From: Aquimarina sp. MMG016
GTDB lineage: Bacteria > Bacteroidota > Bacteroidia > Flavobacteriales > Flavobacteriaceae
DNA: 64,000 bases
Reading direction: 5' to 3'
Assembly: GCF_018100805.1 (NCBI RefSeq)
Contig: NZ_JAGJEA010000006.1
Span: 124,001 to 188,000 of the forward strand
The translations under genes and the position numbers were made by a program. Positions 554-13,092 of this stretch are shown here, piece by piece. Each line of letters starts with the position of its first letter. Position 1 is the first letter of the stretch. The notes beneath the pieces were generated by a model. It searched no databases and was not told where the DNA came from. It worked only from the letters and a program-made list of their open reading frames with translations.

Positions 554-1417
554 TTAACTAAAACTTAATCTTCTAAATGGTGCTGGTTTAATCCTTGGCT
601 TAATATCTGGCAAAACGTGATTATTTTCTTTTTTAGAAGCCCTTTGTTCTCCTATCTGAATGAGATATTCCATAATACCATTACGTAGTTTTTTATACTC
701 CTCATTATGGTTCAACGCGGTTTTATCTCTTGGACGATCCAAGTTGATCTTATATTCTGGTCCAAGAGTGGCTTTTGGACCAGGTTTTAATGGAATAATA
801 CGATCTGCCATTAAAATCCCTTCATCTACATCATTGGTAATCAACAGCGCCGTTTTTTTATCTTTATTCCAGATTTTAAGGATTTCCTGCTGTAAATTTC
901 CTCTGGTTAACGCATCTAACGCACTCAAAGGTTCATCCATTAAAATCACATCAGGACTCATAGATAATGCCCTGGTAACAGAAACCCTCTGACGCATCCC
1001 TCCAGAAAGTTCTTTAGGAAGTTTACCTATAGCGGGCGAAAGATTTACCATCTCCACATAATCTTCTACACGCTTATTTCTATCTTTTTTAGACATTTTT
1101 TTAAACGCTTCTTTAACCGCCATACCTACATTATTCCTGACGTTTAACCAAGGTAATAATGAATAATTCTGAAAAATCACACCACGTTCGTGACTAGGCC
1201 CCGTAACAGGTTCTCCTTTAAACAAAACCTGTCCTTCATCAGGCATCATTAATCCGGATATTAGGTTTATCAATGTAGTTTTTCCGCTACCGGTAAACCC
1301 AACGATCGCCACAAACTCCCCTTCTTCAATCTCTAAATTGATATTTGACAATACCTGAGTACGATCTTTTCCGGTACCAAAAGATTTTGATACATTTCTT
1401 AATTCTATATACGCCAT
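554..1417 (-). CDS. Nitrate-type ABC transporter ATP-binding protein
   Basis: Second ATPase subunit of the importer, 287 residues. It has Walker [10 protein letters not shown], the NitT/TauT hallmark [15 protein letters not shown], signature LSGGMRQR and Walker B DEPLSALD. The usual His switch is replaced by a TNDVDE sequence, as in NrtC/NrtD-type proteins. It ends shortly after the nucleotide-binding domain, so it lacks the fused NrtA-like domain of cyanobacterial NrtC. It lies 10 bases downstream of the permease gene and 11 bases upstream of the next ATPase, so it is translated from the same message. The substrate (nitrate/nitrite) is inferred from the neighbouring nirBD genes; the family also transports cyanate, bicarbonate and taurine. 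Confidence 0.92.
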
Positions 1418-1427
1418 ACTATTGATA

Positions 1428-2525
1428 TTAAGCTGTTTCCTCAGTAAACGTTACAAACTTCTGTATAGTTAACATTATTCTATCAAGCAAAAATCCTATA
1501 ATTCCAATAACAAACATCGCTACAATAATTTTGGAATTAGAATCATTAGCTCCGTTCTGAAATTCTTCCCAAACAAAAGAACCAAGTCCCGGACTTTGTG
1601 CTAATAACTCTATAGCAATTAACACCATCCAAGCTACGGATAATGTGATTCTTAGTCCCGTAAAAATTAATGGAAATGAAGATGGCAAAATGATCTTGAA
1701 CACTTTTTGCCCTACACTTAACTGAAGCACCTTAGCCACATTTATATAATCTTTATCTACAGAAGAAACCCCCATACTAGTATTGACCAATGTTGCCCAC
1801 ATCGAACATAGCCCAACACTTATAAAAGAAATAATAAAGGAACTATCAGAATCTGAGCCACGTGTTAAAGTTTTTACAATCATAAACACCAATAACAGCC
1901 ACACAACGGGAGAAACAGGTTTAAAAATCTGGATCAACCAGTTTACTGATGATCTTAGTGTTTTACTTAATCCTAGCATAATACCAATAGGGACTGCTAT
2001 AAACAGTGCCAACAAAAACCCAGCAAACACCGTTTTAAGACTTGTAAATATTTGGTCTACAAATGACGGTCTCCCTGTATATGTTATTGGCGCCAAACCT
2101 TGTGCTTCTCTTTGAGCATTGGTAGCTGCTACTTTGTCTGAAAAGGCAGCTTTCTTATCTGAAATAACTGCGTGATCCGCCAATAATGACTTATAAGCCG
2201 TCCAAACCTGAGCTGGCGATGGCAAGGTATTAGGTTGACAACTAATATCTCCCGAATCTATACAGGTACGCATTTCTAAAGCTGCTGCCTCTCCTTGATC
2301 AGTCATAGCTTTTTCGATTCTAGCATCTTTTTCAACATTATAAAGATATGTTGCTCCTGTATACCATAGTATCAAAAATAACCCTACGGATAATATTGGC
2401 AATAATACTTTTTTAAATAAAGCAATTAAATTTTTCTTTATTTCTTCTCCGGTTGCCAATCTAATAGCTGGTTCAAAAAAACCTAACCCTACAAAATTGA
2501 GAATATGTATAGACCTGTCTTTCAT
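1428..2525 (-). CDS. nrtB: Nitrate-type ABC transporter permease (NrtB-like)
   Basis: Membrane subunit of the importer, BPD_transp_1 fold, 365 residues against about 270-300 for a typical NrtB/TauC. A first membrane segment near residues 35-58 is followed by about 95 hydrophilic residues with two Cys (CIDSGDISC) and the family sequence LPSPAQVW. The remaining segments start near residue 163. The cytoplasmic loop that contacts the ATPase is near residues 255-300 ([21 protein letters not shown]). The enlarged extracytoplasmic part is the odd feature. It follows the binding-protein gene after 117 bases that contain a strong hairpin, and it precedes two ATPase genes. Nitrate specificity is inferred from the neighbourhood. 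Confidence 0.88.
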
Positions 2526-2617: not shown

Positions 2618-2651
2618 GAGAAATAAAAAGGGGAATCCCTTTTTATTTCTC
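2618..2651 (-). promoter_or_regulatory. Perfect intercistronic hairpin between binding-protein and permease genes
   Basis: Arms GAGAAATAAAAAGGG (2618-2632) and CCCTTTTTATTTCTC (2637-2651) form a 15-bp perfect stem with a 4-base loop. The stem includes the stop codon of the upstream binding-protein gene. No T-run follows on the minus strand, so a complete intrinsic terminator is unlikely. An mRNA-stabilising or partly attenuating structure that raises binding protein over membrane subunits is a reasonable inference. Confidence 0.75.
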
Positions 2652-4046
2652 AATGCTTGAAACACCTTCCACATTTTCTTTGTTCCCGATACCAAAACTA
2701 TTAATATATCCAATCGGATCTTTAGCATCATATTTATTACCATCAATAAAATCAGTAGTTGCAGGTTTATACCCATCTGTTTTAGGTAATTCTGAAGCTT
2801 CTAGATGACCTTCTTTCACTAACAAATTAGCAGCTTTTGTCCAAATATCAGGACGATAGATATCCTTTATGGTTTTGTCATACCATTCCGCTGGCTTACT
2901 TTCTGGAATTTGTCCCCATCTTCTCATTTGGGTTAAGAACCAAATTCCGTCTGAGTAAAAAGGATAGGTAGCATCATAACGATAAAACACGTTAAAGTCC
3001 GGCATCTCTCTTTTATCTCCTTTTTCAAACTCAAAAGTACCTGTCATAGAATTTGCCAAGACAACTTCATCCGCACCTACATATTCCGGCATAGATAAAA
3101 TTTTCACTGCTTCTTTACGATTTCCAGGGGTGTCTAACCATTTTCCTGCTCTTATCAAAGCTTTAGTAACTGCAGTTGCAGTATTAGGATATTGCTCAAC
3201 AAATTTCTTGGTCATTACGAAAACTTTCTCAGGGTTATTCTTCCAGATATCATAATTCGTAGTAACCGGCACACCAATACCTTTAAAAACTGCTTGTTGA
3301 TTCCACGGCTCACCTACACAGTATCCATATATTGTACCTGCTTCAAGTGTTGCTGGCATTTGTGGTGGCGGAGTAACTGATAATAAAACATCTGCATCAA
3401 TTTGACCTTGAATATTATCTTTAGAGTACATTCCCGGATTAATTCCAGCCGCAGCTAACCAATATCTTATTTCGTAATTATGTGTCGAAACAGGAAATAC
3501 CATCCCCATCTTAAACGCTTTTCCATCATTCTTATAAGATTCTATTACAGGCTTAAGTGCGTCTGCCGAAATTGGATGAATAGGTTTACCATCTTCTCCT
3601 TTAGGAACATTTGGTTTCATTTTAGACCAAACATCGTTTGATACCGTAATACCATTACCATTTAAATCCATCGAGAATGGAGTTACCAACTCTGCTTGTC
3701 TACCAAAACCAGCTCCTGCAGCTATTGGTTGACCGGCTAACATATGCGAACCATCTAATTGTCCGTCGATAACACGATCCAAAACATTTTTCCAGTTAGA
3801 CTGCGCCTCTACAGAAACAAACAACCCTTCATCTTCGAAGAAGCCTTTTTCCTTTGCTATTGCTAAAGGAGCCATATCCGTTAACTTTATAAAACCGAAA
3901 GTTAATTGCGGTTTCTCTATAAGTAATTTAGGGTCATCCTTAGCAGAAGCTTCACTGGATGCTATTTCTTTCTTTTTTTCTCCACCACATGACACTAATA
4001 TCATTGCTGTAAAGATCATTACAATTTTAAGATGTATTTTTTTCAT
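2643..4046 (-). CDS. nrtA: Nitrate-binding-type periplasmic lipoprotein (NrtA/CmpA-like)
   Basis: Substrate-binding component of the ABC importer, 467 residues. A lipoprotein signal ends LVSC with the lipidated Cys at residue 20. The mature protein begins with a charged linker and then the family start [28 protein letters not shown]. Later NrtA/CmpA/SsuA-type sequences include GSHMLAGQP and GYCVGEPWN; the latter lies in the pocket region of nitrate- and bicarbonate-binding members. The length fits NrtA (about 440) rather than the shorter TauA. It is the first gene of a minus-strand operon and is preceded by a promoter with the shared 16-bp repeat. Nitrate/nitrite as ligand is inferred from the nirBD context. 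Confidence 0.9.
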
Positions 4047-4084: not shown

Positions 4085-4106
4085 CAAAACTAAGTATTAT
4101 TACTTA
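4085..4106 (-). promoter_or_regulatory. nrt-operon promoter: 16-bp inverted repeat overlapping a -7 box
   Basis: The plus strand shows TAAGTA-TTAT-TACTTA at 4091-4106. Read on the minus strand, the final TA of the repeat is also the first TA of TAGTTTTG (4092 to 4085), which fits the Bacteroidota -7 consensus TAnnTTTG. The same two-base overlap occurs at 6095-6116 and 7639-7660. Two TACGTA elements (4121-4126, 4135-4140) lie upstream in the direction of transcription. Confidence 0.75.
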
Positions 4107-4387
4107 ATAAATAATCATGCTACGTATAAAAAAGTACGTATTTATATCATTATTACATATTCCTAAATTTTAATTCTCATAAAATGAATATTTATGAATT
4201 AAGAATATATTTTTTTAAAGAATAATAAATTCATAAAACAAAAACATCTGTAAACTACTGATAAATAATGAATTAAATAATTTTAAAATATTTAAACATT
4301 GTAACTAAAAGAATTTTAATCATTTAAACTGGAATTATCTATATAGAAAGAAATAAAGGAAAAAACATCTTGTATAGATTTTAAAAA

Positions 4388-4403
4388 TAAGTATATTTAC
4401 TTA
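4388..4403. promoter_or_regulatory. 16-bp inverted repeat upstream of the PilJ-type gene
   Basis: TAAGTA-TATT-TACTTA, with the symmetry extending one more base on each side (4387-4404). It lies 48 bases before the preferred start codon at 4451 and overlaps none of that gene. The bases that would form a -7 box at the conserved spacing (TATAAAAA) lack TTTG, so this promoter differs from the other three. Confidence 0.7.
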
Positions 4404-4450
4404 TAAAAATGCTTTTTTCAAAACACATTACTAACCAAACTTTTTTACCC

Positions 4451-5278
4451 ATGAAGCTAAAATTTTTATCCATTTTGACAGTTTTTATACTAATATCAAT
4501 AACTAACTTATCTGGTCAATCACAGAATTATGGAGCCATCAGCTATAGTAAAGCAATAAATGTATCCGGAAAACAGCGTATGCTGTCTCAAAAAATGTCA
4601 AAGGCTTTCTTATTGATTAGCAATAGGATCAACAACTCCGAAATCCAAAAAGAACTAAACTCCAGCAAGTTTGTATTCAAAAAACAATTAGAAATACTAT
4701 CTAAGAACGCCACATCCACAACGATTAAACTATCTATTAAAAATGTACAGAAATTATGGATTCAGTTTAAAAGCATAATCAGCTCTACCCCTAATCTCGA
4801 AAACTCTTACAGAATAATGAAGCTAAACACAAAGCTTTTAGCAGCTTGTGATGACCTTGTAACAAGCATAGAACAAAGTTCTAATTACAACAATCGATTT
4901 TTTAAAAATGAAAATCAAGATTTAATTTCCACAATAAATGTATCAGGAAAACAACGTATGCTGGCCCAAAGAATGTGTTTATACTATATAGCTAACACTT
5001 TATTTCAGAATGAAAATTCGGAATATGGCAAAATACTAAGCATAGTTTATGACGAATTTGATACTGCAATTGGTAATCTGTTAATAAGTAGCTATAACAC
5101 AACTGATATCGAAGAAGAATTAGGAAACATCATGTCTATATGGGAAAAATTTCAATCAGATAGAAGAGGATTCATGAACGGAAAATTTCCTTTGGAAGAA
5201 GTATTTAAAATCACCAATACCCTTACAAAAAGCTTTAATAAAATAACCGGAATTTATGAAGGAATATCAAAAAAATAA
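4451..5278 (+). CDS. Secreted protein with two PilJ-type (type IV pili methyl-accepting, N-terminal) sensor motifs
   Basis: Predicted exported protein of 275 residues with no kinase or methyl-accepting part. A signal peptide (MKLKFLSILTVFILISITNLSG) is followed by two helical repeats. Each starts with the hallmark N-V-S-G-K-Q-R-M-L-[SA]-Q, at residues 37-47 and 163-173. The same motif opens the periplasmic domain of the histidine kinase at 11278. This PilJ N-terminal family is related to the ligand-binding part of the NarX/NarQ nitrate sensors. A soluble periplasmic nitrate/nitrite-binding partner of the kinase is an inference. The start at 4451 is preferred over the upstream in-frame ATG at 4409 because it gives a clean signal peptide and leaves room for the promoter. 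Confidence 0.8.
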   Translation: MKLKFLSILTVFILISITNLSGQSQNYGAISYSKAINVSGKQRMLSQKMSKAFLLISNRINNSEIQKELNSSKFVFKKQLEILSKNATSTTIKLSIKNVQKLWIQFKSIISSTPNLENSYRIMKLNTKLLAACDDLVTSIEQSSNYNNRFFKNENQDLISTINVSGKQRMLAQRMCLYYIANTLFQNENSEYGKILSIVYDEFDTAIGNLLISSYNTTDIEEELGNIMSIWEKFQSDRRGFMNGKFPLEEVFKITNTLTKSFNKITGIYEGISKK

Positions 5279-5283
5279 GCCTT

Positions 5284-5982
5284 CTAAAGGCTGGAGATCA
5301 TACCATGTTCTCTAGCCTTATTACTAAGCTCTAGAATATTTTTTACTCCCATTTTTTTCATTAGATTAAACCTATGCACTTCTGTCGTACGTCTACTTAT
5401 ATTCAATTCTGTCGCTATATCTTTATTAGTCATCCCCGAGATAGCTAGTTGAAGTATTTGACTTTCCCTTTTAGTTAGATCAAACGGGTTACCAACAATG
5501 CTTTTAGATTCCTTAGCAACTATATCACTTTGGTCTTCAAAATCTTTAGAATTGACCTGATCCTCAGATCGAATTTTCTTTACCAAAATAGAAGAAACAT
5601 CACCACTAAAATATTTCTCCCCTTTACTTATAGTAGATAAAGCCTTTAGAAACTCCTGTTTTCCTGCATCTTTTAAAAGATATCCATCTGCTCCGGCATT
5701 AATAGATTGAAGAATATATTCATCAGAGTCGTGCATCGATAACATAATCGTTTTAGAGCTTACACCTTGACTTACTAGTTCTCTAACAGTTTCTATACCC
5801 GACATTTCAGGCATTCGAATATCACAAATAACAATATCCGGCTTAAGTGACTGCACTAATGCAATTGCCTCTCTCCCATCCGAGGCTTCTCCGATGATTT
5901 TATATTGATCTTCATCTTCTAAGAGCGCTCGAATACCGTCTCTTACCAAAAAATGATCATCTACCAATACTATGCTTATCAT
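5284..5982 (-). CDS. NarL/FixJ-type response regulator
   Basis: Two-component transcription regulator, 232 residues from the ATG at 5982; an upstream ATG at 6003 would add seven residues. The receiver domain has acidic pocket D8-D9, phospho-acceptor D54 (VICDIRMPE) and the conserved Lys in LLKDAG near 104. A linker of about 40 residues leads to a LuxR-type HTH (LTKRESQILQLAISGMTNKDIA, then STYPE-like SRRTTEVHRFNLMKKMGV). It lies tail to tail with the PilJ-type gene, 5 bases apart, and divergent from the porin gene. The obvious partner is the HisKA_3-type kinase at 11278, since NarX-type kinases pair with NarL-type regulators. It is a candidate binder of the repeated 16-bp palindrome. Confidence 0.9.
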   Translation of the reverse strand: MISIVLVDDHFLVRDGIRALLEDEDQYKIIGEASDGREAIALVQSLKPDIVICDIRMPEMSGIETVRELVSQGVSSKTIMLSMHDSDEYILQSINAGADGYLLKDAGKQEFLKALSTISKGEKYFSGDVSSILVKKIRSEDQVNSKDFEDQSDIVAKESKSIVGNPFDLTKRESQILQLAISGMTNKDIATELNISRRTTEVHRFNLMKKMGVKNILELSNKAREHGMISSL

Positions 5983-6062
5983 ATCCTTAATATATATAGT
6001 CACTCAAAGATATGAATATTTCAAAAACACTTGTCATTATTTAAGTATATCAAAATTTTAAC

Positions 6063-6116
6063 TACGTATTTTTAAGTAATAAACACAATAAAAATAAGTA
6101 TTTATACTTAGATTTG
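6063..6116 (+). promoter_or_regulatory. Porin-gene promoter with shared 16-bp repeat
   Basis: TAAGTA-TTTA-TACTTA at 6095-6110 runs directly into TAGATTTG (6109-6116), a match to the -7 consensus TAnnTTTG, with the same two-base overlap as at the nrt and nirB promoters. A second element with the same 6-4-6 spacing, TACGTA-TTTT-TAAGTA, is at 6063-6078, exactly 32 bases (three helical turns) upstream. Confidence 0.75.
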
Positions 6117-6207
6117 CTTTCAATAATTATCAAACTAATAGAACATTATTAAGAAATGTAATCAACACAGGTTATCGCACTTGTATTTTAAGCAAAAAAA
6201 CGTTCAT

Positions 6208-7521
6208 ATGAAGAATACATTAAATTTTACTATATTAATATTTTTAGTTTTAGCATTTAAGGGAAAAGCACAAGAATTAAGTATTGATGCTGATTATAGA
6301 GCCAGATATGATTATCGACACGGATTTCACAATTTGGTTCCACAAGGTGTAGAACCAGCTTCTTTAGTCGAGCAGAGAGCGAGACTCAAATTTGGATATA
6401 CTTCAGAAAAATTTAAAGCACATTTAAGTTTTCAGGATGTCAGTGTATGGGGAGATACAAGACAAATTTTACCAACGGATAGTAATGATAGTTTTCAAAT
6501 AGCAGAAGCTTGGGTTCAATTAAAACTTAGCGAATCCTGGGCCACAAAAGTAGGACGACAAACCCTATCGTATGACGATCAAAGAATTTTAGGAGGTCTT
6601 GACTGGGCTATGCAAGGGCGTTTTCATGATGCTGCACTAATTAAATATGCAAAAGGAAAATCAAAACTTGATGTAGGGTTTTCTTTTAGTCAAAACTCCG
6701 GTTCAGCAAATCCTGCAAATGAATTTGGTAACGTATTTGATGTTACTGGCTTTTTTACCTACAAAGCATTAGAATTTGCTCATTATAATATCGCTTTTAC
6801 AGAAAATAATAGCCTTAGTATTTTAGCAATGAATAATACTTTTCAGAATATAGAAAATGGTATTGCTGTAGAAGGTTTTTTTCATAGACACACATTTGGT
6901 GCATATGGAAAATTTAAATTAGGAGGTGTTGGACTAGCAACTAGCGCGTATTATCAAGCCGGAAAAGCTAATCAAAACACAGACCTCAGTGCATACTTAC
7001 TGTCTGCAGAGGGAATCTATAAAGCTGGGGCTACCAAAATAGGGCTTGGATTTGAGATACAAAGTGGTACCGACCAAAATAGTACTGATGATAAAAACAA
7101 ATCTTTCTTCCCACTTTATGGCACCAATCACAAGTTTAATGGGTATATGGATTATTTCTATGTTGGCAACCACGCTAATAGTGTAGGGTTAACGGATATA
7201 TACGGAAAAGCAATCTTCAAAACAGGTAAAAAATCAAGTCTTTTGGTTAAAGCACATTATTTTGGAGCTGCAGCTACACTCATTAATGATAATGATGGGT
7301 CGGAAGCAGATTCTTACCTGGGAACAGAGGTTGATATTGTATTTACACAAAAACTATTACCATATGCTACTTTAAAAGTAGGATATTCTCAGATGTTTGC
7401 TAGTGAGAATATGGAATTCTTGAAGAACCAACCTGATCCTTCTGGATTACAAAACTGGGGATGGGCAATGCTTGTTGTAAAGCCAAACTTCTTAAAATGG
7501 AGCCCTAAGCCTTCAGAATAA
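6208..7521 (+). CDS. Outer-membrane porin, alginate-export-type beta-barrel family
   Basis: Predicted 437-residue outer-membrane channel. Cleavable signal peptide (MKNTLNFTILIFLVLAFKGKAQ), then a barrel rich in alternating aromatic/polar strands. The N-terminal sequence LSIDADYRARYDYR and the early segments EQRARLKFGY and VGRQTLSYDDQRI are typical of the alginate_exp porin family. An ATG at 6208 is used because the upstream alternative (TTG at 6181) would place nine charged residues ahead of the signal peptide. It lies between the regulators and nirB and shares their promoter element. Passage of nitrate/nitrite across the outer membrane is therefore inferred; the family itself does not define the substrate. 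An intrinsic terminator follows. Confidence 0.8.
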   Translation: MKNTLNFTILIFLVLAFKGKAQELSIDADYRARYDYRHGFHNLVPQGVEPASLVEQRARLKFGYTSEKFKAHLSFQDVSVWGDTRQILPTDSNDSFQIAEAWVQLKLSESWATKVGRQTLSYDDQRILGGLDWAMQGRFHDAALIKYAKGKSKLDVGFSFSQNSGSANPANEFGNVFDVTGFFTYKALEFAHYNIAFTENNSLSILAMNNTFQNIENGIAVEGFFHRHTFGAYGKFKLGGVGLATSAYYQAGKANQNTDLSAYLLSAEGIYKAGATKIGLGFEIQSGTDQNSTDDKNKSFFPLYGTNHKFNGYMDYFYVGNHANSVGLTDIYGKAIFKTGKKSSLLVKAHYFGAAATLINDNDGSEADSYLGTEVDIVFTQKLLPYATLKVGYSQMFASENMEFLKNQPDPSGLQNWGWAMLVVKPNFLKWSPKPSE

Positions 7522-7545
7522 ACCAACTACAAAAATATACAACGA

Positions 7546-7580
7546 AAAGCCTGCAAATAATTTTGCAGGTTTTTGCTTTT
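7546..7580 (+). terminator. Intrinsic terminator after the porin gene
   Basis: Stem CCTGCAAA (7550-7557) / TTTGCAGG (7562-7569), extended by flanking A/T pairs, with a 4-base loop and a T-rich tail. It separates the porin from the nirB promoter. Confidence 0.85.
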
Positions 7581-7616
7581 ATTATTTAAGCATTCTTAAT
7601 TTGACACCCATATAAT

Positions 7617-7675
7617 TACGTAATTCTTACTATTAAAATACGTATTAATACTTAATTTTGAACTATTAATACGTA
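7617..7675 (+). promoter_or_regulatory. nirB promoter with shared 16-bp repeat
   Basis: TACGTA-TTAA-TACTTA at 7639-7654 overlaps the -7 box TAATTTTG (7653-7660) by two bases. Further TACGTA elements are at 7617-7622 and 7670-7675. I see no clear -33 TTG element, which suggests that the promoter depends on a regulator. The untranslated leader would be short, since the ATG is at 7680. Confidence 0.8.
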
Positions 7676-7679
7676 ATTT

Positions 7680-10199
7680 ATGAAGAAGGTTGTAGTAATA
7701 GGTAACGGAATGGTAGGTTATAAGTTCTGTGAGAAGTTTGTATCATCAGAAAAATTTACCGAATATAAACTTATAGTATTTGGAGAAGAACCAAGACGTG
7801 CATATGATAGAGTACATCTGAGTGAGTTTTATGATGGTAAAACTGCAGAAGATTTAAGCATGTCGACCGCTAGTTGGTATACAGAAAACAATATTGATCT
7901 TCATATTTCAGAAATGATTACTGAGATTAATAGAGAAGACAAAACAGTAGCTAACCATCGTGGTGATACGTACTCATATGATTATTTAGTATTAGCAACA
8001 GGATCATCAGCATTTGTTCCTCCTATTCAGGGAGTTGATAAAGAAGGAGTTTTTGTGTATCGAACCATTGAAGACTTAGAAGCTACCGAAGCATATGCTA
8101 AAAAATTAAAAGCAGCCGGAAAAACAGAAGCCGCAGTACTTGGAGGAGGATTACTAGGCCTAGAAGCTGCAAATGCAGTTAAAAACTTAGGACTAAACGC
8201 ACATGTTATAGAATTCGCGCCAAGACTCATGCCTAGACAACTAGATAAGGGCGCCAGCGATATGTTACAAGCCAAGATCGAAAGTTTAGGTTTACAAGTT
8301 CACCTTTCGAAACAAACTCAATTCATCCAAGGAGATAAAGCCATTGAAGGTTTACAATATATCGATGGCACCGAATTAAAAGTAGATATGCTTGTTGTTT
8401 CTGCAGGGATACGTCCTCGCGATGAAGTTGCCAGAGAAGCAGGACTAGAAGTAGGTACCAGAGGCGGTATTGTAGTGAATCAACAAATGCAAACCTCTGA
8501 TCAGAATATCTATGCTATCGGAGAATGTGCACTCCTAAATAGTATGATATATGGTTTAGTTGCTCCGGGATATGATATGGCCGAAGTTGCCGTAAATCAA
8601 ATTACTGGAGGTACAAGTGCAATGCCTGAGTATATCGATATGTCAACGCAACTAAAACTCATTGGTACTGAAGTAGCAAGTTTTGGAGATGCGTTAAACG
8701 ATGCCAAAAAGGATATTGATGAAATTACCTATGAAAATAGACGTAAAGGAGTTTACAAAAAAATAAACGTTTCTAAAGACGGTACAAAACTTTTAGGAGG
8801 AATTCTTGTAGGTGACTCTTCAGACTATAATTCTCTTTTCCAAATATATATCAATGGAATGAAACTTCCGGAAGAACCCGAAGATCTTATCCTGGGTAGC
8901 CGTGGAGGCGATGATAGAGGCTTATTAGGTGATGTAATGGATTTACCAGATGGAGCTCAAATTTGTTCTTGCGAAAGCGTAACCAAAGGGCAAATTTGTG
9001 GTGCTATTGAAAGCGGAGAAGCTACAGATGTTGCTGGAGTAATTAGTTGTACAAAAGCAGGAACTGGTTGTGGTGGATGTAAACCAATGGTTACCGACCT
9101 AACAAATGCAGCTCTAAAATCTTTAGGTATTGAAATTAAGGATGGAGTTTGTGAACACTTTGAACTAAGTAGACAAGATTTATATAAAATTATTCAAGTA
9201 AAAGGATACACCAAATTTGATGAAGTATTAGATAATCATGGAAATGGAGGTCACGGATGTGAATTATGCAAACCACTTATTGCTTCGTTAATGGCAACCA
9301 TTCACGCTGATACGGCTAATAAAGAATATGCTATTCAAGATTCTAATGATCGTTTCTTAGCTAATATTCAGCGTAACGGAACATATTCTGTGGTTCCTAG
9401 AGTTCCTGGAGGAGAAATTACTCCAGAAAAACTTATTGCGCTAGGAGAAATTGCTAAAAAGTATGACTTATATACCAAAGTAACCGGTGGTGTTCGTATT
9501 GATTTATTTGGTGCCACTTTGAATCAATTACCTTTAATATGGAAAGATCTAATTGATAACGGTTTTGAAAGTGGCCACGCGTATGGTAAATCTTTACGTA
9601 CGGTAAAAACGTGTGTGGGCTCTACTTGGTGTCGCTACGGAATGGATGAAAGTGTCAGTTTTGGTATTGAGCTCGAAAATCGATACAGAGGAATTCGTGC
9701 TCCACATAAAATTAAAGGAGGAGTTTCAGGATGTATACGAGAATGTGCTGAAGCGCGTGGCAAAGATTTTGGTTTAATTGCAGTAGAAGGAGGATGGAAC
9801 CTATATGTTGGTGGAAACGGTGGTGCAACACCACGACATGCAGAACTATTTGCCGAACAAATTGATAATGAAACTGTAATAAAATACTTAGATCGCTACT
9901 TAATGTTCTATATGCGTACAGCAAAACCATTACAAAGAACAGCTGCCTGGCAAGAACGTTTAGAAGGTGGGTTAGAGTATCTAAAAGAGGTTATTATTGA
10001 TGATAAACTAGGTATCGCCGAAGATTTGGAAAAAGAAATGAAAACATTAGTTAACAAGTTTGAATGTGAGTGGACCCAAGCCATCAATGACCCTGAAATG
10101 ATGAAACGTTTTAATCATTTTGTTAATAGTGATGAAGAGGATGACAATATTGCTTTTGTTCCTATGAGAGAACAAAAAATGCCAGAACCTTGGAAATAA
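7680..10199 (+). CDS. nirB: Assimilatory nitrite reductase (NADH), large subunit
   Basis: Cytoplasmic enzyme reducing nitrite to ammonium with NAD(P)H, 839 residues, full length for NirB. Order of domains: FAD/NAD(P)H-binding oxidoreductase (about 1-300, starting VVVIGNGMVGYKF); rubredoxin-reductase C-terminal-like part; BFD-type [2Fe-2S] domain with CSCESV and CGGCKP; a second BFD-like module ending HGCELCKP; nitrite/sulphite reductase ferredoxin-like half domain (from about 560); and the siroheme/[4Fe-4S] domain with TCVGSTWCR and GCIRECAEARGKDFG. All four cluster Cys are present. It is the first gene of an operon with nirD, DUF4202 and a sensor kinase, under a promoter of the shared type. 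Confidence 0.97.
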   Translation: MKKVVVIGNGMVGYKFCEKFVSSEKFTEYKLIVFGEEPRRAYDRVHLSEFYDGKTAEDLSMSTASWYTENNIDLHISEMITEINREDKTVANHRGDTYSYDYLVLATGSSAFVPPIQGVDKEGVFVYRTIEDLEATEAYAKKLKAAGKTEAAVLGGGLLGLEAANAVKNLGLNAHVIEFAPRLMPRQLDKGASDMLQAKIESLGLQVHLSKQTQFIQGDKAIEGLQYIDGTELKVDMLVVSAGIRPRDEVAREAGLEVGTRGGIVVNQQMQTSDQNIYAIGECALLNSMIYGLVAPGYDMAEVAVNQITGGTSAMPEYIDMSTQLKLIGTEVASFGDALNDAKKDIDEITYENRRKGVYKKINVSKDGTKLLGGILVGDSSDYNSLFQIYINGMKLPEEPEDLILGSRGGDDRGLLGDVMDLPDGAQICSCESVTKGQICGAIESGEATDVAGVISCTKAGTGCGGCKPMVTDLTNAALKSLGIEIKDGVCEHFELSRQDLYKIIQVKGYTKFDEVLDNHGNGGHGCELCKPLIASLMATIHADTANKEYAIQDSNDRFLANIQRNGTYSVVPRVPGGEITPEKLIALGEIAKKYDLYTKVTGGVRIDLFGATLNQLPLIWKDLIDNGFESGHAYGKSLRTVKTCVGSTWCRYGMDESVSFGIELENRYRGIRAPHKIKGGVSGCIRECAEARGKDFGLIAVEGGWNLYVGGNGGATPRHAELFAEQIDNETVIKYLDRYLMFYMRTAKPLQRTAAWQERLEGGLEYLKEVIIDDKLGIAEDLEKEMKTLVNKFECEWTQAINDPEMMKRFNHFVNSDEEDDNIAFVPMREQKMPEPWK

Positions 10200-10252
10200 T
10201 AATCTTATACCATGGTACATCAAAATTAGATGAAACTAAACACAAGAAGACT

Positions 10253-10630
10253 ATGGAAGAAATTTTAGAAATATATAAAACTATAGCTACAGAAAATGTA
10301 AAAGTATGGTTTGAGGCTGCAAAAGTGAGTGACTTTCCTAAAAATGGAGGAGCTTGCGTGAAATACAAGGAAAAGCAAATTGCGGTCTTCAATTTTGAGC
10401 GAAAGAATGCGTGGTATGCATGCCAGAATGTATGTCCACATAAAATGGAAATGGTATTAAGCAGAGGAATGATTGGTGATCAAAATGGAATACCTAAGGT
10501 TGCCTGTCCTCTTCATAAGAAAACTTTTTCATTAGAAAGTGGTGAAAATCTAAATGGAGACCTGGCTCCCATTGCTACCTATCCTGTTAAAATAGAGGAT
10601 GGAATCGTGTTCATTGGGTTTGAAGAGTAA
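10253..10630 (+). CDS. nirD: Nitrite reductase (NADH) small subunit, Rieske-type
   Basis: Small subunit partner of NirB, 125 residues from the ATG at 10253. It carries a Rieske [2Fe-2S]-type fold with C61-P-H63 and C85-P-L-H88, so both Cys-His pairs are intact; many NirD proteins lack them. The segment between the pairs matches NirD (MVLSRGMIGDQNG-IPKVACPLHKKTF). The longer reading frame from 10190 overlaps nirB and adds residues unlike the family, so the shorter start is used, leaving a 53-base gap. It is cotranscribed with nirB. Confidence 0.93.
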   Translation: MEEILEIYKTIATENVKVWFEAAKVSDFPKNGGACVKYKEKQIAVFNFERKNAWYACQNVCPHKMEMVLSRGMIGDQNGIPKVACPLHKKTFSLESGENLNGDLAPIATYPVKIEDGIVFIGFEE

Positions 10631-10685: not shown

Positions 10686-11270
10686 ATGCCAACCACAAAA
10701 CTAAACGAAGCATTTTCTCTCTTTGACAGAGTAAATGCAGACGACCCCAACAAAGAAATCGTTAACGGACAATCAATTGCCAAAGAATTGATATACGGTC
10801 AACGAATGAGCCAAACTCTAGAATCATTTGACCCTGAAGCTTCAGAAGCATTAAAACTAGCAGCAAGATCACAACATATTTGTCGTTGGGAAATCCCTCG
10901 TGATAGTTATCCAATGGATCGTGTAGGTTATTTAAAATGGAGAGAAGAGCTAAAGAAATTTCATGCAGCAAAAGCTTCAAACATATTAGAAAAGGTTGGT
11001 TATAATGCTGAGACTATTGAACGAGTTTCATTCTTGCTCCAAAAGAAGAAGTTAAAAAAAGATGAAGAAACACAAACTCTTGAAGATGTAATTTGTCTGG
11101 TATTTTTAAACTTCTACTATGAACCTTTTTTAGAAAAACACACCAAAGAAAAGGTTATCGACATTCTACAAAAAACCTGGAGAAAAATGTCTGAAAAAGG
11201 TCATCAGGCAGCTTTACAACTTTCATATTCAGAAAAAGCTTTAGATTTGGTAAAACAAGCTTTATTATAG
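10686..11270 (+). CDS. DUF4202 family protein
   Basis: Cytoplasmic protein of 194 residues matching the DUF4202 family from start to end. Recognisable blocks are ARSQHICRWEIPRDSYPMDRVGYLKWR and the following KFHAAKASNIL segment, which carry conserved His, Trp and Arg residues of HD-like character. No function is established. Its position between nirD and the nitrate-sensor kinase (55 and 7 bases away) places it in nitrite/nitrate assimilation. Small-molecule hydrolysis or cofactor supply is only a guess. No signal peptide or membrane segment is seen. Confidence 0.8.
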   Translation: MPTTKLNEAFSLFDRVNADDPNKEIVNGQSIAKELIYGQRMSQTLESFDPEASEALKLAARSQHICRWEIPRDSYPMDRVGYLKWREELKKFHAAKASNILEKVGYNAETIERVSFLLQKKKLKKDEETQTLEDVICLVFLNFYYEPFLEKHTKEKVIDILQKTWRKMSEKGHQAALQLSYSEKALDLVKQALL

Positions 11271-11277
11271 TTCTACA

Positions 11278-13092
11278 TTGAGTAAACGAGAATCTTTAGA
11301 CCACCAAACTTTTAGTCGCCTTAGCAAGATCTACATTATTGCTTTAGGCGCAATCGCACTATTCACTATTGGTGGACAATTTTTTATCCAGAGATATTTA
11401 AATTCTCAAATAGACGATTCCAGGATAATTAACCTTTCCGGAAGACAACGTATGCTAAGTCAAAAGCTAACTAAAGAAATTCTATTACTCACTGATCTAA
11501 AAAATAAAACTTTAAAAGAAAATCATATTAAAGATCTGGAGTCCACGATTGATTTATGGAAAGGATCACATCAGGCACTTCTACAATACAATAAATCAAT
11601 ACAACTGGAAAGTAATGATAGTATTGAGATACAAAAAATGTTTGTGGTTTTAGAACCATACTTTCAAACTATTTATAGTAATAGTAAAAAGGCTCTAAAT
11701 CAATTTAAGCAAGATTCTGTTGATACTGCAGAACTAAAAATAAGTCTTGATGCAATTATCAAAAACGAAGCTCTTTTTTTAAAGCAAATGGATGCGATTG
11801 TATCCCAATATGATAAAGAAGCCAAAGAAAAAGTATCTTATCTAAAACAAGTTGAGTATTTATTATTCTCAGTAATTATATTAATTCTAATTTTCGAGTT
11901 TTTTCTACTGTTCAGACCTGTAGCTTTAAGTATAAAAAAAACGATATCCAACTTGTTAACCTCTCAACAAAAAACTGAGGAAATGGCTTCTAGAACAGAA
12001 AACCTAAGGAAAGCTCAAGAAAAAAACGTTCAGGAATTAGTTGCACTTACCAAAGCAATTGATCAGACCCTGTTATATGCGAGAGTAAATGAAAATGGTG
12101 TGATTCAAAGTTTAGGTGATAGATTTGCAAAATTACTAAGTACCGAACACAATTATGAACAAAAAAACTTAGCTGACATTATGGAGTTAGGAGAAGTTCA
12201 GAAAAATAGATTGCTTCAACTTATTTCACAAAATAATGGCGATATATTTAATGAAGAGTTTGAGTTCGCAACAGTTTCCGGGCAAAAGCTTTGGTTAGAC
12301 GTATCCATACTTACTGTTTTTAGGGAGTCTGGTAAACCCGAAAGACTAGTACTTTGTTCAGACATTTCTAAACGTAAAGAAGCTCAACAGGAAGTTGATA
12401 GATTGAATGCTTCGAGGTATAAAGAAAAGGAAGAAATTCAAAAATCAAATGCCAGTCAGATTGTTGAAGCACAGGAGGAAGAACGTGAACGTATTGCAAA
12501 AGAAATTCATGATAGTATTGGTCAAATGCTTACCGCATTAAAATTTAATATAGAATCAATTAATCTTGATAATACAGAAAAAGCGGCTAGCAAAATTGAA
12601 GGTTTAAAGCAATTATCCAAAGATCTAATTCAAGGAATCCGAATGGCTACATTTAATCTTACTCCTCCGGAGCTTAAAGATTACGGAATCTCTATTGCGC
12701 TTCAAAAAATGGCCAAAGAGTTATCTAAATTGACTGGTAAAAACATCCTTTTTGAAAACAAATCTGATTTTAACCACCGTTATGATACACTTGTAGAAAC
12801 CAATTTATATCGAGTGACTCAAGAAGCAGTAAATAATGCCATTAAATATGCTAAATCTGACTATATAATGATCACAGTCAATCATTCTGATACTATATTG
12901 AGCATTACTATTGATGATAATGGAAAAGGATTTGACATAAACAAAATACCTTCAAAACCAACCAATAAAGCAGAAGGAGGAATGGGTCTATTCTTTATGA
13001 AAGAACGCATGAACTATATCAACGGTAGGATATTTATAAACTCTACTCCGGGAAAAGGAACGAGAGTAACACTTAATTATAATATCCTCTAG
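11278..13092 (+). CDS. Membrane histidine kinase with periplasmic PilJ/NarX-like sensor domain
   Basis: NarX/NarQ-like sensor, 604 residues. Membrane segment about 18-37; periplasmic helical domain 40-190 opening with INLSGRQRMLSQKL (51-64); second membrane segment 194-213; cytoplasmic coiled coil; PAS-like domain about 255-365; HisKA_3 dimerisation/phospho-acceptor domain with H411 (AKEIHDSIGQML); HATPase with NNAIKYA, DDNGKGFD and GMGLFFMKER. It probably phosphorylates the NarL-type regulator at 5284-5982. The start is TTG at 11278: an in-frame stop at 11251 leaves no ATG upstream and the next ATG would remove the sensor motif. It lies in the nirBD operon, so the sensor gene is likely autoregulated. 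Confidence 0.9.
   Translation: MSKRESLDHQTFSRLSKIYIIALGAIALFTIGGQFFIQRYLNSQIDDSRIINLSGRQRMLSQKLTKEILLLTDLKNKTLKENHIKDLESTIDLWKGSHQALLQYNKSIQLESNDSIEIQKMFVVLEPYFQTIYSNSKKALNQFKQDSVDTAELKISLDAIIKNEALFLKQMDAIVSQYDKEAKEKVSYLKQVEYLLFSVIILILIFEFFLLFRPVALSIKKTISNLLTSQQKTEEMASRTENLRKAQEKNVQELVALTKAIDQTLLYARVNENGVIQSLGDRFAKLLSTEHNYEQKNLADIMELGEVQKNRLLQLISQNNGDIFNEEFEFATVSGQKLWLDVSILTVFRESGKPERLVLCSDISKRKEAQQEVDRLNASRYKEKEEIQKSNASQIVEAQEEERERIAKEIHDSIGQMLTALKFNIESINLDNTEKAASKIEGLKQLSKDLIQGIRMATFNLTPPELKDYGISIALQKMAKELSKLTGKNILFENKSDFNHRYDTLVETNLYRVTQEAVNNAIKYAKSDYIMITVNHSDTILSITIDDNGKGFDINKIPSKPTNKAEGGMGLFFMKERMNYINGRIFINSTPGKGTRVTLNYNIL

Follow-up and report, generated by a model that had tools for sequence, protein, structure and literature searches.

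Introduction

Two-component control of nitrate and nitrite genes is represented by E. coli NarX/NarL and NarQ/NarP, Bacteroidetes narHK/narRR and staphylococcal NreBC. We compared these systems with a nitrate/nitrite gene cluster in a 64,000-nucleotide stretch of the Aquimarina sp. MMG016 genome (contig NZ_JAGJEA010000006.1, positions 124,001 to 188,000; the whole stretch is hereafter the window), in which a 16-bp palindrome, TAMGTA-N4-TACTTA, recurs upstream of the genes of the cluster. An initial annotation had described four promoters carrying this palindrome as a nitrate/nitrite regulon; our analysis supports both the observation and its principal interpretation, and enlarges the four promoters to a family-wide regulon.

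The E. coli systems resemble this locus in having a PilJ/NarX-type sensor kinase, a NarL-family regulator and nitrate/nitrite genes. The 7-2-7 repeats bound by NarL carry TAC at their outer ends. The NarL heptamer is TACYYMT, whose first six letters the window half-site TACTTA fits (PMC4886647), and NarL often recognises inverted repeats of the 7-2-7 type (PMC7419079). The window palindrome differs from these sites in that TAC is innermost, the spacer is 4 bases, TACGTA is also allowed and the site is usually fused to a -7 box. A NarL/NarP 7-2-7 operator was accordingly rejected for the palindrome, which is a 6-4-6 arrangement with TAC innermost. The positions differ as well: NarL sites at the ogt promoter are centred at -44.5 and -77.5 (PMC7419079), whereas the palindrome fused to a -7 box is centred at about -18.5.

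The narHK/narRR kinase-regulator pair of Bacteroidetes, named in a 2021 review, likewise combines a nitrate-sensor-domain kinase lacking HAMP or GAF with adjoining nitrate genes (PMC8199190). All of this was found in the window, namely a PilJ/HisKA_3/HATPase kinase without HAMP, a regulator with receiver and GerE domains, and adjoining nitrate/nitrite genes. Pfam assigned PilJ, HisKA_3, HATPase_c and HATPase_c_2 to the window kinase, and no HAMP, GAF or PAS at E ≤ 0.001. In Flavobacteriales, narHK kinases are described with PAS domains (PMC8199190); by Pfam the window kinase has none and its orthologue at locus L118 has one. The available text of that review gives no binding site, regulon or promoter structure for the pair. 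In staphylococcal NreBC a response regulator likewise acts on a palindrome before nitrate genes, but, unlike here, the NreC site is GC-rich and NreB is an oxygen sensor with an iron-sulfur cluster (PMC8139620). A flavobacterial nitrate-use operator, regulon or promoter lock is not described in the literature searched, from which most subscription journals were missing. LuxR-type regulators such as NreC bind inverted repeats with an N4 spacer.

Results

Distribution of the palindrome in the host genome and upstream of nirB

Exact TAMGTA-N4-TACTTA was found at 8 places in the 5.35-Mb host genome, with a reversed-pattern control giving 3 per strand. Six of these are intergenic and lie within 16 kb in one nitrate/nitrite cluster, and the motif is thus not scattered at random; the other two (C7 and C29) lie within open reading frames (ORFs) and were dropped as promoter sites. 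The four window sites, before the importer operon, the tandem-PilJ gene, the porin and nirB, were all exact at the coordinates first reported (Table 1), and two further promoter sites lie approximately 8 kb before the window, one at a molybdopterin nitrate reductase gene and the other at a globin gene or operon. The single regulon of the initial annotation therefore stands, with six promoter sites in this genome rather than four members. No further exact site is present in the window, and its one-mismatch sites (12298, 31827 and 33206) are all within ORFs. When 2 mismatches were allowed, the window gave 34 matches against a shuffle mean of 22 (at least 34 in 11 of 100 shuffles), an unremarkable count, so that the signal is carried by the exact pattern.

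For conservation, a scan for nirB yielded 243 relatives, of which the best 80 were kept, from Aquimarina, Algibacter, Polaribacter, Maribacter, Tenacibaculum, Cellulophaga, Winogradskyella and others. TAMGTA-N4-TACKTA was present within 350 bp upstream of nirB in all of these best 80 (78 exact, 2 with one mismatch), relatives that are not independent of one another (L071/L089 and L080/L090 are duplicate records) and whose ORF calls are mechanical, with some nirB starts placed too early. The 80 loci contain 247 exact sites, of which 244 do not fall within the body of a long ORF, and the kinase gene lies within the fetched stretch at 76.

Fixed spacing between the palindrome and the -7 box

The -7 box of flavobacterial promoters has the consensus TAnnTTTG and occupies -12 to -5 (PMC9723704). 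At the importer, porin and nirB promoters, and not at the tandem-PilJ gene, the palindrome ends in the TA with which such a box begins, as first noted; across the host genome this lock is seen at four of the six promoter sites (importer, porin, nirB and nitrate reductase). Using 109 loci with 293 exact sites searched on both strands, we found 181 TAnnTTTG boxes starting at palindrome +14 (180 distinct contexts) and no more than 12 at every other offset. The initial claim that fixed spacing marks selection was borne out. Chance as the origin of the motif was ruled out by the genome scan, the family genomes described below, the nirB relatives and the lock offsets. TACKTA-nn-TTTG occurred 237 times, against 29, 52 and 41 occurrences for spacers of 1, 3 and 4 bases; the lock is carried by the half-site itself. 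Several nirB promoters whose exact palindrome is unlocked have a second, imperfect palindrome that is locked to the box. Because the -7 box lies at -12 to -5, a locked palindrome spans about -26 to -11.

Locked sites were counted by gene class, with a site between divergent genes entered in both classes. The counts were 63/80 for nirB, 26/28 for the porin, 21/24 for nitrate reductase, 18/48 for NrtA, 4/46 for the regulator, 1/25 for PilJ and 1/7 for globin, and the lock is therefore not universal.

Scarcity of the -33 element and phasing of extra half-sites

In flavobacterial sigma-A promoters a TTG (-33) element precedes the box by about 21-23 bp. Non-locked TAnnTTTG boxes in the same loci were enriched for TTG at 21-23 bp upstream. 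At locked promoters the element was searched for and was scarce: a TTG 19-27 bp ahead of the box was counted for 10 of 161 locked boxes and for 57 of 295 others. The initial annotation had placed the binding protein between the -33 and -7 elements; as no -33 element was found, the phrase describes a position only.

The extra TACGTA or TAAGTA half-sites reported upstream of the importer, porin and nirB palindromes are present; none was found upstream at the nitrate reductase and globin promoters. Across 175 promoters, 238 upstream half-sites were counted, against a shuffle mean of 52 and a reversed-hexamer control of 65. They lie mainly at about -32/-33 or -22/-23 (both together in 4 of 184) with a period of about 10.5 bp, a pattern also found in 86 non-redundant promoters. 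The non-redundant sets were built with a crude 60% identity cut, and Rayleigh values serve as guides only.

Candidate binding protein

Co-occurrence was determined in 199 family genomes, with thresholds of E ≤ 1e-40 for the kinase, E ≤ 1e-200 for nirB and E ≤ 1e-42 for the response regulator encoded at 5284. All three were found in exactly the same 46 genomes, the kinase match being partial in G002, G082 and G180. Of these 46 genomes, 43 have TAMGTA-N4-TACKTA-nn-TTTG, compared with 6 of the 153 others (reversed control, 3/46 and 4/153); the exceptions, G001, G024 and G075, have an exact palindrome before nirB and lack palindrome plus box. In G180 the regulator and kinase lie on a contig other than that of nirB, and the motif before nirB is still kept.

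At loci with this kinase, all 77 regulators whose sequence spans the recognition helix carry HRFN[LM]M[KR]K there (76 from exact-palindrome loci plus L105; the truncated L117 was left out). At L108 and L113, two loci without the palindrome, the regulator has a different helix. The closest solved relative of the window regulator is NarL (1a04), although its recognition helix is unlike that of NarL. These comparisons are consistent with one DNA-binding protein serving one regulon, as first predicted, and strengthen the case for the NarL-type regulator that had been named as first candidate. On this genomic evidence, the 5284 regulator likely binds the palindrome.

Proposed mechanism

From the patterns above we infer the ligand, phosphorylation, binding and direction of control as follows. 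The kinase encoded at 11278 would sense nitrate or nitrite via its PilJ domain and phosphorylate the 5284 NarL-family regulator, a dimer of which would occupy TAMGTA-N4-TACKTA, aided by extra half-sites at a distance of two or three helical turns. Fusion of the downstream half-site to the -7 box (TACKTA-nn-TTTG), as seen at the majority of nirB, porin and nitrate reductase promoters, would put the dimer at about -26 to -11 where a -33 TTG is mostly absent, and its most likely action would be to activate promoters that RNA polymerase alone cannot open. Such control is predicted for the importer or an MFS transporter, for nitrate reductase and nirBD-DUF4202-kinase, and for the porin, tandem-PilJ and globin genes; the regulator would often be a target of its own, and many relatives would have an Fnr-like regulator among the targets.

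The palindrome thus probably serves as operator for the nitrate/nitrite two-component system of this cluster, with a regulator that most likely activates. Provided that the regulator binds, there is good reason to expect activation from this position. A more specific proposal, which we hold tentatively and at slightly less than even confidence, is that this NarL-family regulator activates from inside the spacer, with one half-site overlapping the -7 box and taking the place of the -33 contact made by the unusual sigma factor of Bacteroidota. We know of no other NarL-family member with such a promoter architecture.

Several observations weigh against the mechanism as a whole. TTTG follows an end of the palindrome by two bases at 154 of the 244 intergenic sites in the nirB loci, leaving 90 unlocked, and nearly all PilJ, globin and regulator sites are among the unlocked. 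Locked promoters are G-poor throughout their upstream region, and the scarcity of TTG is therefore partly compositional. No family genome has nirB without the regulator, and nirB, kinase, regulator and motif were gained or lost together; co-occurrence therefore cannot name the binder. Conservation of the recognition helix could be due to orthology. The survey for DNA-binding families covered ten proteins of the window and four of locus L006. Kinases of G002 and G082 have no sensor domain, and the motif is nevertheless kept in these genomes. The genes in question are orthologues at L118 (13175-14515) and L119 (12812-14179) that lack PilJ; by Pfam the L118 kinase has PAS, HisKA_3 and HATPase_c, and the L119 kinase was judged from its alignment range and sequence.

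The comparison across the phylum has a similar weakness. Among 395 genomes, 28 have nirB, and palindrome plus box was found in 14 of the 17 with the kinase nearby and in none of the 11 in which the kinase is missing or, as at L108 and L113, kinase and regulator have diverged; those 14 are all in the family of the window and those 11 all outside it, so that the comparison is confounded and kinship explains it equally. The reversed control matched in 19 of 395 genomes, none with nirB, and seven nirB-free genomes also match palindrome plus box. Among the 17, G001 has an exact palindrome without the box. Outside the family the link between regulator and motif is seen in G383 and G368 only: G383 has the kinase, the regulator and an exact palindrome before nirB with no box lock, and G368 keeps kinase and regulator, yet its half-sites are separated by 5 bp. 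The nirB promoter of G368 (L105) has TACGTA half-sites, of which the downstream one retains the lock to TTTG; co-evolution of regulator and site could be tested on such a variant.

Alternative explanations

A half-site 28-34 bases past the palindrome start (about +3 to +9) was found in 33 of 99 non-redundant promoters, which also counts against straightforward activation; together with the overlap between palindrome and -7 box, it would also suit a repressor. The same regulator might then mainly repress, covering the -7 box and blocking RNA polymerase, with nitrate or nitrite either releasing it or setting a feedback limit. We consider this unlikely, since repression needs no exact register, yet 181 boxes sit at a single offset, the scarce -33 TTG fits activator-dependent promoters, and half-sites also lie two or three turns upstream.

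Much less probable is that the palindrome is bound by some other DNA-binding protein, with the two-component system acting elsewhere. Co-occurrence, which cannot separate the genes of one cluster, leaves room for it, but Pfam found no DNA-binding family besides the regulator in ten window proteins or four L006 proteins (the other cluster genes were not run), and in many relatives the motif also stands before the regulator gene.

A Crp/Fnr-type factor, which the initial annotation had offered as a second candidate, is a very improbable binder and is disfavoured by the genomes. The FNR site is TTGAT-N4-ATCAA, and the palindrome is unlike it. What speaks for such a factor is a nitrate-linked gene for an Fnr-like protein that has a cysteine cluster at its N terminus; close orthologues of this gene (≥ 270 bits) occur in 34 of the 46 genomes with the nirB set and in none of the 153 others. 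At the same cutoff it is absent from 12 of the 46 (G000, G177, G001, G011, G024, G030, G082, G121, G129, G143, G164 and G172), which include the window's own genome, so an Fnr-like orthologue does not accompany the motif everywhere, in a search that left out other Crp subfamilies. With any match at E ≤ 1e-30 counted, 43/46 and 80/153 genomes have an Fnr-like protein; G000, G177 and G143 have no match at this level (more distant Crp-family proteins were not searched), though the motif is present in them.

Sites away from the cluster bear on the same question, and for these 20 regions were hand-picked from roughly a hundred rows of the family-genome motif scan. Twelve precede Fnr-like genes, all among the close orthologues of the nitrate-linked protein, which has N-terminal cysteines; the L137 example is cNMP_binding plus HTH_Crp_2 by Pfam. 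As it lies behind the motif and is absent from 12 of 46 genomes, the Fnr-like gene fits better as a target that adds a second layer of control. In three of the remaining regions a transporter gene and then a nitrate reductase gene follow (L130 is MFS by Pfam; L141 and L128 were judged by eye), and in one (L138) an Alginate_exp-type porin lies behind the motif. Two sites precede a porin, BBP2 by Pfam at L135 and called by eye at L124, where the contig ends early; one (L134) precedes a gene for a 186-aa protein, and one (L129) has no gene within 1.3 kb. At L135 (1989-4659) the motif is followed by the BBP2 porin and then by P-II and an AmtB ammonium transporter, and at L124 (2060) it stands before the porin-like gene; these two sites suggest a wider nitrogen regulon.

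A reading of the palindrome as part of the core promoter, such as that of an alternative sigma factor, is hardly credible despite the fixed register relative to the -7 box, because the palindrome is a near-perfect dyad, is no commoner than chance in those family genomes that lack the two-component system and is unlocked at other promoters.

Features of the window

The coordinates of palindromes, boxes, half-sites and genes are collected in Table 1. The tandem-PilJ protein, with two nitrate-sensor-like domains and the motif ahead of its gene, is possibly a nitrate-binding partner of the kinase. DUF4202, a family of unknown function, was found together with nirD and the kinase at 76 of the 80 fetched loci (L009-L088). 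At L006 (6234-7676), a gene for a 480-aa protein with a NIR_SIR ferredoxin-like half domain and a rubredoxin domain adjoins the nitrate reductase gene. The window gave no Rfam match at gathering scores and no tRNA.

Table 1. Promoter elements and genes of the nitrate/nitrite cluster in the window (offsets are relative to the palindrome).
Feature	Position	Strand	Basis or remark
Importer ATPase	554..1417	-	Pfam
Importer permease	1428..2525	-	Pfam
NMT1-like (NrtA-type) substrate-binding protein of importer, putative target	2643..4046	-	Pfam
Importer promoter -7 box TAGTTTTG	4085..4092	-	Sequence; TA common with palindrome; TAnnTTTG consensus (PMC9723704)
Importer operon palindrome TAAGTA-N4-TACTTA	4091..4106	-	Exact match; locked to minus-strand TAGTTTTG box
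Half-site TACGTA upstream of importer palindrome, offset -20	4121..4126
Half-site TACGTA upstream of importer palindrome, offset -34	4135..4140
Tandem-PilJ gene palindrome	4388..4403	+	No TAnnTTTG lock in gene direction
Tandem-PilJ protein without kinase, putative target	4409..5278	+	Pfam PilJ, two stretches
Response regulator, receiver + GerE/LuxR helix-turn-helix, candidate binder	5284..6003	-	Pfam; best solved relative E. coli NarL 1a04; co-occurrence
Half-site TAAGTA upstream of porin palindrome, offset -53	6042..6047
Half-site TACGTA upstream of porin palindrome, offset -32	6063..6068
Half-site TAAGTA upstream of porin palindrome, offset -22	6073..6078
Porin promoter palindrome	6095..6110	+	Exact match; in region common with divergent response regulator
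Porin promoter -7 box TAGATTTG	6109..6116	+	Sequence
Outer-membrane porin, Alginate_exp family, putative target	6181..7521	+	Pfam
Half-site TACGTA upstream of nirB palindrome, offset -22	7617..7622
nirB palindrome TACGTA-N4-TACTTA	7639..7654	+	Exact match; conserved in relatives
nirB -7 box TAATTTTG	7653..7660	+	Sequence
Half-site TACGTA downstream of nirB palindrome, offset +31	7670..7675
nirB nitrite reductase, putative target	7680..10199	+	Pfam
nirD (Rieske), gene after nirB	10190..10630	+	Pfam
DUF4202 gene, between nirD and kinase	10686..11270	+	Pfam
Histidine kinase with PilJ sensor domain, putative nitrate/nitrite sensor for regulator	11278..13092	+	Pfam; same 46 genomes as regulator

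Implications

The motif and its lock predict regulon members from sequence, and tie them to a candidate sensor and a candidate regulator. They also provide a clean test case for the action of a NarL-type regulator on the unusual flavobacterial promoter, in marine flavobacteria, which are little studied. If the proposal is true, activation from within the spacer would be a fixed module reused at several nitrate genes and, in many species, also upstream of an Fnr-like regulator.

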